Shown one piece after another: positions 36,628-53,605 of a stretch of 64,000 nt of DNA. The notes under the pieces were generated by a model, which worked only from the letters and a program-made list of their open reading frames with translations, did not search any database and was not told the DNA's origin. The position numbers and the translations under genes are program-made. How positions within the stretch are numbered: the first letter of the stretch is position 1; each line of letters begins with the position of its first letter. The DNA is from Fervidicoccus fontis Kam940 (GTDB lineage: Archaea > Thermoproteota > Thermoprotei_A > Sulfolobales > Fervidicoccaceae): the NCBI RefSeq assembly GCF_000258425.1, contig NC_017461.1, positions 620,001-684,000 of the forward strand, written 5' to 3'.

Positions 36628-36632
36628 AGAAG

Positions 36633-36706
36633 TGGGCCCGCTGGGAGTCGAACCCAGGACCTCCGCCGCGTCAGGGCGGCGTCCTAACCAGCTAGACGAC
36701 GGGCCC
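36633..36706 (-). tRNA. tRNA-Val (GAC), second copy
   Basis: The minus strand folds with acceptor GGGCCCG/CGGGCCC, D stem GTCT/GGAC, anticodon stem CCGCC/GGCGG with loop CTGACGC (anticodon GAC, G at 37), variable loop AGGTC and T arm CTGGG-TTCGACT-CCCAG. It is 74 bases, one shorter than the copy at 1142-1216, and CCA is not encoded. Confidence 0.94.
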
Positions 36707-51147: not shown

Positions 51148-51837
51148 ATGAATAAGGTCAAGCTGGTCGCCTTCGATGTAGACGGCGTCTTTTTAGAAAA
51201 CAGAAACAGCTGGGATACCGTGAGCTCTTTTCTAGGTACCGAAAAAAATATACAGAATTATCAGCTTTTCATCAGCGGAAAAATTAGCTACTATGAGTGG
51301 ATGTACTTAGATACGCTATCTTGGATAAGGGGCTCAAAAAAAGGCTATGTTAGCAAAGAGGATCTAGAGAGAGCTTTTCAAAGCATAAAGGTTAAAGTAG
51401 AAGTTGTAGATCTTGCTAAAAGGCTCAGGCAAAGTGGAAAAAAGATCGTACTTCTCAGCGGAGGAATAGATGTATTTGTCAGAAAGGTTGCCTTAATGAT
51501 AGGAGAAGATGTTACTTGGTTTGCAAACATTCTAATTTTCGATTCAAATGGAAGGTTAGTCCCTGGCGGGATCCCTTTAGTGCCTGCCGGCAAAAAAGGA
51601 GAAATTCTCAGGAGGATCAGGGAAAAGCTGAATATTATTAAGAAAGAGACAGCTTTCATAGGAGACAGTGCTTGGGATAAGGAAGGGTTTACTGAATCTG
51701 GATTGAGCATTCTATACAACGGTATAAAAGAGGAGCTTTCTGAGATGAAGGTCTGTGCAGTAGCTGAAAATGTGGAAGAAGTTGAAAAAATAATTAATTT
51801 ATATGAAGCAGGGGAAATTTTGTGCGAGGATTTCTAA
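51148..51837 (+). CDS. HAD-superfamily phosphatase (phosphoserine phosphatase-like)
   Basis: AFDVDGVFLENRNSWDTVSS contains the catalytic DxD motif, with both aspartates at residues 9-11. VLLSGGIDVFVRKVALMIGE is motif II, and KLNIIKKETAFIGDSAWDKE holds motifs III/IV (lysine and GDSxxD). A small helical cap after motif I places it in subfamily IB, with phosphoserine phosphatase and relatives. At 229 residues it fits. Serine synthesis or another small phosphoester is possible. The ATG follows GAGGAGATGAGTT. The box C/D sRNA cluster follows. Confidence 0.85.
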   Translation: MNKVKLVAFDVDGVFLENRNSWDTVSSFLGTEKNIQNYQLFISGKISYYEWMYLDTLSWIRGSKKGYVSKEDLERAFQSIKVKVEVVDLAKRLRQSGKKIVLLSGGIDVFVRKVALMIGEDVTWFANILIFDSNGRLVPGGIPLVPAGKKGEILRRIREKLNIIKKETAFIGDSAWDKEGFTESGLSILYNGIKEELSEMKVCAVAENVEEVEKIINLYEAGEILCEDF

Positions 51838-51935: not shown

Positions 51936-51994
51936 AGCGTTATGATGAATTAAATGTTGCTGAAAAGTGATGCAGGCCTGTGTTGCTGAGCGCT
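51936..51994 (+). ncRNA. Box C/D sRNA 1
   Basis: All four boxes are present in order: C box ATGATGA (51942-51948), D' CTGA (51960-51963), C' GTGATGC (51967-51973) and D CTGA (51986-51989). The spacers are 11 and 12 bases, ideal for archaeal guide RNAs. AGCG and CGCT at the ends pair to close the kink-turn. A TATA-like TATAAATT lies upstream near 51921-51929. The D guide AGGCCTGTGTTG predicts a target CAACACAGGCCT, which by memory resembles an AACACAGG segment of 23S rRNA. Confidence 0.85.
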
Positions 51995-52005
51995 TTTTAT
52001 TTCAA

Positions 52006-52035
52006 AGCCGGTTTTCTCTCTTTTTAAAACCAGCT
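52006..52035 (+). terminator. Inverted repeat with T runs after sRNA 1
   Basis: AGC-C-GGTTTT (52006-52015) pairs with AAAACC-A-GCT (52026-52035), one mismatch, with T runs on the loop side. It lies between the first and second guide RNA and may separate their transcription. Confidence 0.4.
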
Positions 52036-52072
52036 CAATTTAATTAATAAGTATTCAGAAAATTTTATAAAA

Positions 52073-52131
52073 ATGATGAGCTTGATCTAATTGGATGAGC
52101 GTAATGCGATGATGCTGTTATCCCCGTCTGA
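52073..52131 (+). ncRNA. Box C/D sRNA 2, predicted to guide to the 23S peptidyl transferase centre
   Basis: The C box ATGATGA (52073-52079), C'-like ATGATGC (52109-52115) and D box CTGA (52128-52131) give a 59-base RNA, typical for archaea. The D' box is degenerate and not assigned. The D guide TGTTATCCCCGT is complementary to CGGGGATAACA, the universally conserved 23S sequence around E. coli 2443-2453 (recalled, not searched). The D+5 rule would place methylation on the third G of GGGG, E. coli G2446. The extra base next to the D box does not pair. Confidence 0.75.
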
Positions 52132-52196
52132 TTTTAAAAAGATAGAAAGGTTTAAATCTGTGGGGAAATGATAATTTTTAACTACTCTTTTAGAAG

Positions 52197-52253
52197 ATGA
52201 TGACTGCCCTATCGAAGATGCCTAACGGCGATGATTCCTTGAATCCCGTCTGA
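52197..52253 (+). ncRNA. Box C/D sRNA 3
   Basis: C box ATGATGA lies at 52197-52203, a D'-like CTAA at 52222-52225, a degenerate C' (CGATGAT-like) near 52229-52235 and D box CTGA at 52250-52253. The guide before D (CTTGAATCCCGT) has no target I recognise. Its 57-base length and its position directly after two better guides support it. It ends 26 bases before the next gene's start. Confidence 0.6.
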
Positions 52254-52279: not shown

Positions 52280-53605
52280 ATGCTCAGCTTCAGCATTAAT
52301 TCAAGCGATGTTGATATGCTTGCCACCCTCATTATTTCATTTTTAGAAGGAGGTCTCTTAGGACTAGAAAGGTATAAAGTTGGAATGGAGAAGCAGGATA
52401 AAATTGAAAGTGAAGAGCTACCTGGAGTAAGGACATATGGACTAATGAGCATATTAGGAACTATACTTGCCTTGCTTAATTCTGACAAGATCTCCGTAAG
52501 CCCTTTTGCAAATGAGGTTTTAACCGTTTCTGGCGCTATTTTCGTCACGATCTTGATGGTATCTTACATATACTTCAGGCTCTACAGACTGAAAATAGCG
52601 GGATTGACTTCATATTTCGTCTTCTTCCTAACATTCATCATAGGATTTCTCACTGGCTATGGATACTATATTCTTTCTATGAGCTTAACCTTTCTCATAG
52701 CAGGAATTTTGGCGTTTAAGAGAGCAATAACCGCCTCTCTGGAAAAGCTTTCGTATGATGAACTCACTGCGGGTCTTGAGCTTGGGATGATTATCTTCAT
52801 ACTTGGTCCTTTCGTTTATGCGACAAACTATGAAATTTATGGTCTAAACCTTCAAGGAGTGTACATTTTCTTTACGCTTATTTTAGCAATCTCTTACATA
52901 AGCTATATGGCTTATAAGCTTAAAGGAGAGAAGAGCCTTCTTGCCGTTTCACTACTTGGTGGACTTATCAATAGTGAAGCAACGCTAATGAATATATTAA
53001 AAATTGGGGTAAAAGGAAAAAAATTGGCAAAGCTTTCGTCTATTAATAACAGCGGAATGGTGATAAGGACTGCTCTCACAGTATTAATAGGTGCGTATCC
53101 ATTCCTCATTTCTGATGGATACGAAATATTTGCAAGATACATAATCTCAGGTGTATTACTCTCAATTATGATTCTATACTTAACATATACTCTTTCTGGA
53201 AGGGAAAAGAAAGCTGAGGAAAATGGGGAAAAAGTACTGTATCTTGCAAGCCCGTTGGAAGTAAAAATTGCAACGAGAGGAGTCATTCTTTATATCTTAA
53301 TTTTCGTTTTGGTTAAGGTATCAAACTACTATCTTGGAAGCTATGCCCTCTTTATAACATCATTCATAGGCGGCTTTGCAAGCTCCATCGCTACAGTTCT
53401 TTCTCTGCTTTCTCTAGGTTCTACTGTATCAATAAAAATAATATCGAGCGCGTCTCTATTATCAATGGGCGCAGCAATGCTGAATAAAATAATTTACGCA
53501 AAAATAACCACCGATGATAAAGATGCCCTTAAAGAGGTCCTGGTTTCATCTATACCGTCTGGCATAGCTCTTATAATCCTCTCACTCATATTCATCTATT
53601 TTTAA
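52280..53605 (+). CDS. MgtC/DUF4010 membrane protein
   Basis: The N-terminal part matches the MgtC/SapB domain (FLEGGLLGLERYKV and GVRTYGLMSILGTILALL, with the conserved LIGLER-type and GVRTF-type motifs). Further along, LGGLINSEATLMNILKIG and a long stretch of helices match DUF4010. There are about twelve membrane helices in 441 residues. Such fusions are common in archaea and have no known substrate, though magnesium or pH stress is suspected for MgtC alone. The ATG follows AAAGGATGAAAAC, only 26 bases after the box C/D RNA. Confidence 0.87.
   Translation: MLSFSINSSDVDMLATLIISFLEGGLLGLERYKVGMEKQDKIESEELPGVRTYGLMSILGTILALLNSDKISVSPFANEVLTVSGAIFVTILMVSYIYFRLYRLKIAGLTSYFVFFLTFIIGFLTGYGYYILSMSLTFLIAGILAFKRAITASLEKLSYDELTAGLELGMIIFILGPFVYATNYEIYGLNLQGVYIFFTLILAISYISYMAYKLKGEKSLLAVSLLGGLINSEATLMNILKIGVKGKKLAKLSSINNSGMVIRTALTVLIGAYPFLISDGYEIFARYIISGVLLSIMILYLTYTLSGREKKAEENGEKVLYLASPLEVKIATRGVILYILIFVLVKVSNYYLGSYALFITSFIGGFASSIATVLSLLSLGSTVSIKIISSASLLSMGAAMLNKIIYAKITTDDKDALKEVLVSSIPSGIALIILSLIFIYF

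Follow-up and report, generated by a model that had tools for sequence, protein, structure and literature searches.

Do the three short, similarly built stretches that separate a HAD phosphatase gene from an MgtC/DUF4010 gene in the heat-loving archaeon Fervidicoccus fontis Kam940 encode guide RNAs, and if so, what would they guide and why do they stand in a row? The host genome is one contig of 1,319,206 bases, of which a 64,000-nt stretch, here called the window, was analysed. Direct reading of the sequence gave three units in box C/D layout, s1, s2 and s3, on the plus strand and flanked by the HAD phosphatase gene (51148-51837) and the MgtC gene (Table 1). Three ATGATGA...CTGA candidates on one strand between these genes had been proposed in an earlier sequence-only reading, and each indeed carries a perfect ATGATGA and a CTGA close to its ends, with a length of about 50-65 nt. 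The four boxes, the 11- and 12-nt guides and the closing stem attributed to s1 are likewise as described, with its stem beginning at 51936 and its C box at 51942. A D' and a C' box for a second k-turn are present inside all three units. Those of s1 are canonical; in s2 and s3 the D' boxes are degenerate with GA kept, the C' boxes are RTGA-like, and a short hairpin follows D'.

Table 1. Features of the s1-s3 locus; positions refer to the window unless a locus of a relative (L number) is named.
Feature	Position	Strand	Basis or remark
s1 C/D box sRNA	51936..51994	+	sequence; conserved in G003, G006, G007
s1 stem AGCG / CGCT	51936-51939 / 51991-51994	+	sequence
s1 C box; D box CTGA	51942-51948; 51986-51989	+	sequence
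s1 D' guide ATTAAATGTTG (11 nt); D' box CTGA	51949-51959; 51960-51963	+	sequence
s1 C' box GTGATGC	51967-51973	+	sequence
s1 D guide AGGCCTGTGTTG (12 nt)	51974-51985	+	sequence
s1 D guide target	51974..51985	+	predicted 23S A680, AACACGGGCC at LSU 677-686
s2 C/D box sRNA incl. stem	52068..52136 (C to D box 52073-52131)	+	sequence; homologs in G003, G006, G007 and across the order
s2 stem TAAAA / TTTTA	52068-52072 / 52132-52136	+	sequence
s2 C; D' ATGA; C'; D CTGA	52073-52079; 52095-52098; about 52107-52113; 52128-52131	+	
s2 D'-C' hairpin, short, GC / GC	52099-52100 / 52106-52107	+	
s2 D guide CTGTTATCCCCGT	52115-52127	+	sequence
s2 D guide target	52115..52126	+	predicted 23S G2731 = E. coli G2446 (by alignment)
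possible BRE/TATA element GAAAGGTTTAAAT	52146..52158	+	upstream of s3 and MgtC; by eye
s3 C/D box sRNA	52197..52253	+	homologs in G003, G004, G006, G007 and f9 genomes
s3 C; D' AAGA; C'; D CTGA	52197-52203; 52215-52218; about 52230-52235; 52250-52253	+	
s3 D' guide CTGCCCTATCG	52204-52214	+	sequence
s3 D' guide target	52204..52214	+	predicted D-arm of tRNA-Arg (UCU, CCU, CCG), A21 or U20a
s3 D'-C' hairpin GCC / GGC	52220-52222 / 52227-52229	+	sequence
s3 D guide TCCTTGAATCCCGT	52236-52249	+	sequence; core TTGAATCCCGT 52239..52249
s3 D guide core target	52239..52249	+	predicted tRNA T-arm, G52
MgtC/DUF4010 membrane protein gene	52280..53605	+	Pfam MgtC 4.3e-15, DUF4010 1.7e-27
s2-s3 ORF (ORFx) of relatives	L034 1769-2275; L035 2243-2791 (reverse); L037 2948-3457 (reverse)		also L145, L146, L147, L148, L149, L155

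The stretch 51936-52253 is best explained, with high probability, as three genes for box C/D 2'-O-methylation guide sRNAs. The box layout, the conservation of boxes and guides in relatives and the complementarity of the guides to the host's own rRNA and tRNA were all computed here; predicted targets were found and the boxes and guides are kept in relatives, the tests that the sequence-only reading had named for this identity. Expression of s1-s3, sRNP assembly and target methylation would be expected from these features. Each RNA would form a C/D and a C'/D' k-turn and bind L7Ae, Nop5 and fibrillarin, and the nucleotide opposite the fifth base of the guide, counted upstream from D or D', would receive the 2'-O-methyl group. 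By this rule s1 would act on 23S A680, s2 on 23S G2731, the s3 D' guide on the D-arm of tRNA-Arg and the s3 D guide on a tRNA T-stem.

A DNA search of relatives recovered s1, s2 and s3 in G003, G006 and G007 and s3 only in G004, all of the same family as the host. Alignments of each unit showed invariance chiefly at the boxes and guides, with variable sequence in between; the invariant guide stretches are GGCCTGTGTT in s1, GTTATCCCCG in s2, TGCCCTATC in the s3 D' guide and GAATCCC in the s3 D guide. By eye, the terminal stem of s2 is swapped whole, being TAAAA/TTTTA in the window, CAC/GTG in f1 relatives and GGC/GCC in f9, and the s2 and s3 hairpins between D' and C' change sequence in step among relatives, the s3 stem reading GCC/GGC in the window versus CGC/GCG in relatives. 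An s1-like RNA also occurs in G002, a member of the same family, at a different place (L132 1440-1600), followed by a second C/D-like stretch.

In the host genome taken singly, the s2 target test was strong where the others were weak: its D guide pairs with 23S rRNA over 12 contiguous positions (11 Watson-Crick, one GU) and places G2731 at the fifth (p 0.015 against shuffled guides). For s1, the host genome alone gave p 0.27 with shuffled guides, and the D guide fits three 23S sites there. The guides of relatives, which read GGCCTGTGTT or, in many, GGTCCGTGTT, separate these sites: LSU 677-686 pairs with both variants at -18.5 to -19.1 kcal/mol, with A680 at position five, and pairing at the other two weakens by 4-9 kcal/mol between variants. 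The host rRNA served as the target in these energies, and G003 and G002 are identical there. Complementarity kept across genomes thus marks 23S A680 and G2731 as candidate targets that s1 and s2, respectively, probably methylate. Although LSU 1831 had the top raw score for s1 in the host genome, the variant guides found in relatives do not pair there. LSU 12, a match of the s1 D' guide (p 0.015), was discounted since this D' guide lacks conservation. The D' guides of s1 and s2 gave no convincing rRNA or tRNA target in the host genome. The s2 D' guide of f1 relatives is GCTTAGAAGG, which is absent from the s2 of the window and is fully complementary to the anticodon loop of the host's tRNA-Arg(UCU).

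The targets predicted for s3, the D-arm of tRNA-Arg and G52 in the T-stem, are less firm than those of s1 and s2. The D' guide forms eight Watson-Crick pairs and one GU pair with GATAGGGCG, which in one genome alone is not significant (p 0.27, shuffled guides), and its f9 counterpart CGCCCTATCC is fully complementary to GGATAGGGCG. tRNA-Arg genes with the matching D-arm occur in 14 of 15 s3-bearing genomes versus none of five others, a comparison confounded by kinship and by the T-arm being part of the search pattern. The core of the D guide forms nine Watson-Crick pairs and one GU pair with CGGGGTTCAA (p 0.06, shuffled guides), and G52 lies at position five with both D variants, including the CGAACCC of f9. 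LSU 220-228 fits GAATCCC and not CGAACCC, and was rejected. In archaeal tRNA-directed sRNAs one guide serves the tRNA and the other is without a target (PMC7994747), a rule that s3 would break if both of its tRNA targets are real.

The row itself is inherited, as judged from its distribution: s1-s2 with s3 downstream is an old syntenic block of the order. Sequence-only models of the three units, run against 117 relatives, gave individually weak matches that are adjacent and correctly ordered in other families. In the loci fetched from these families s1 and s2 stand in tandem with 71-142 nt from guide to guide, and in f1 relatives and f9 s3 lies 526-609 nt past the s2 guide (about 0.55 kb). Across the class, the head-to-tail s1-s2 pair was found in 43 of 229 genomes, in one order only and in five families (f1, f6, f8, f9, f10), and the reversed control pattern in 0 of 229. 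The pattern required both guides to be near-exact and 60-120 nt apart, so it tells where the pair persists and not how variable the guides are; it misses the window itself, where the guides are 132 nt apart.

Relatives have an ORF of about 160-230 aa (ORFx) between s2 and s3; it is missing from the window, where s3 follows s2 directly, and for this reason the three sRNAs stand side by side. ORFx is very divergent between families, and its common descent across them is suggested by position only. It matched nothing in Pfam or NCBIfam (Portal_Mu, E 0.065, fell below its cut-off), and a search of the host genome, run without a positive control, did not find it elsewhere. In f9, s2 is inside or at the 5' end of ORFx (GDEEMPETD...KKLSPSEP; L145 2150-2230, L146 2040-2110, L148 2220-2280), and this stretch may be guide RNA and coding sequence in one.

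Other readings of the conserved stretches have been weighed against these data. ATGATGA is unenriched in the window (RTGATGA alone: 25 versus 20 expected, not above chance), and for ATGATGA-N34-52-CTGA the null model averages 1.24 per 64 kb, as would suit C/D-like motifs that are decayed or due to chance in AT-rich intergenic DNA. However, s1, s2 and s3 are the only such units on either strand of the 64 kb, three of them on one strand within 320 nt occurred in 0 of 300 first-order Markov sequences, the four-box pattern is confined in the window to s1 and s2 (null mean 0.02), and sequence and position are kept in many genomes, which leaves chance with a negligible likelihood. It is very unlikely that the stretches are instead the N-termini of small proteins (MKKVRVS..., MKKLSPSE...) with an incidental resemblance to C/D RNAs. 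The f9 s2 shares its reading frame with the downstream ORF, so part of the conservation there could be coding, but the window is without such an ORF and the frame is mostly closed immediately in other f1 genomes. Moreover, box spacing and rRNA complementarity are constant across families, and the s1 guide variants are non-synonymous when read as codons (GTC/GCC, CGT/TGT) yet keep their rRNA pairing, indicating that selection acts on the RNA.

A third reading concerns s3, whose k-turn could be a cis-acting L7Ae-binding leader that controls MgtC translation, besides or instead of guiding, in the manner of the l7ae leader k-turn. From the end of s3 to the MgtC start there are 26 nt in the window and about 10-12 nt in G003 and G006, and L7Ae does repress mRNAs via leader k-turns (PMC5539422). 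MgtC is a frequent neighbour and not part of the guide RNAs: homologs lie downstream in 11 other genomes examined. MgtC is the downstream gene in f1, G025, G065, G014, G033, G064, G086 and G092, but Alba follows s3 in G100, G112 and G106 and is the downstream gene of f8 genomes too, and neither MgtC nor Alba was found downstream in G076 and G088. Both s3 guides are kept although the downstream gene varies, and a k-turn leader does not need conserved guides, so a leader role is unlikely, and guide RNA genes remain the preferred reading for all three units.

The tight row had been called unusual in the sequence-only reading on the ground that such genes are usually dispersed singly. This finds no support in the literature, in which a significant share of archaeal C/D sRNA genes is clustered by two or three (PMC7994747, citing Tripp et al. 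2017), and since such clusters are frequent, a tandem row is ordinary in kind. Most archaeal C/D sRNA genes lack a dedicated promoter, their RNAs being processed out of longer transcripts, and most overlap or adjoin neighbouring genes (PMC7994747). From their adjacency, s1 and s2 may be dicistronic and share a transcript. A T-rich tract between s1 and s2 in the window, the BRE/TATA-like GAAAGGTTTAAAT before s3 and the ORF between s2 and s3 in relatives together cast doubt on a single precursor for all three. The probable source of mature s3 is the leader of the MgtC transcript. Window positions 52005-52045, between s1 and s2, can form a hairpin (GCCGGTTTT...AAAACCAGC) with a T-rich loop, possibly a terminator.

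Searched with Rfam, the window gave no family at gathering score except two tRNAs. It also holds two slightly different tRNA-Val(GAC) genes (1142-1217 and 36632-36706). The top-scoring family for s1 was sR5 (RF01304; 27.5 bits, E 2e-4, below the gathering score of 40), and among its homologs only the s1 of G106 passes (40.7 versus 40); the guides of sR5 and s1 differ, so the match reflects the C/D box pattern. In size, four boxes and guide length, s1-s3 resemble the C/D box sRNA sets of Sulfolobus, Pyrobaculum and Ignicoccus, with which they also share an intergenic or leader position and clustering by two or three; unlike in those sets, block synteny is conserved across families, and s2 and s3 have a D'-C' hairpin and not a bare k-loop. 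The three units are real and ordinary in kind, belonging to a known RNA class, in an unusually well conserved setting.

Two guides of the row, in s1 and s2, match those of eukaryotic RNAs, from human and yeast. The guide plus D box of s1 relatives, GGUCCGUGUUUCUGA, equals the consensus of U18/SNORD18 (RF00093), and the same rRNA site is predicted; the s1 relative is otherwise dissimilar and scores far below the gathering threshold (17.7 versus 41 bits). The s2 guide has GUUAUCCC.GUCUGA and a predicted target equivalent to E. coli G2446 in common with snR38/snoR38 (RF00213), a weak match through the guide (20.5 versus 45 bits) with nothing alike outside it. We take 23S A680 and G2731 to be the nucleotides methylated in eukaryotes via U18 and snR38. 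Both snoRNAs are counted among the ancestral eukaryotic C/D snoRNAs, and neither among the few with known archaeal counterparts (PMC3511168). It is conceivable, though unlikely, that s1 and s2, side by side in archaea, co-descend with the genes that became eukaryotic U18 and snR38, and that s3 is a double guide on the tRNA-Arg D-arm and T-arm. Archaeal guide sequences are described as evolving fast and as being for the most part not shared among species (PMC4644070, PMC7994747), and few methylation sites are common between species, convergence being suspected for many (PMC4644070).

What stands out is the age of the block and its synteny, common to many related families, in an RNA class that is itself known. 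Family-spanning syntenic guides on two rRNA sites that also have eukaryotic guides provide a test case for the long-term inheritance of guides, and the same block invites the question of which methylations deserve to be maintained.
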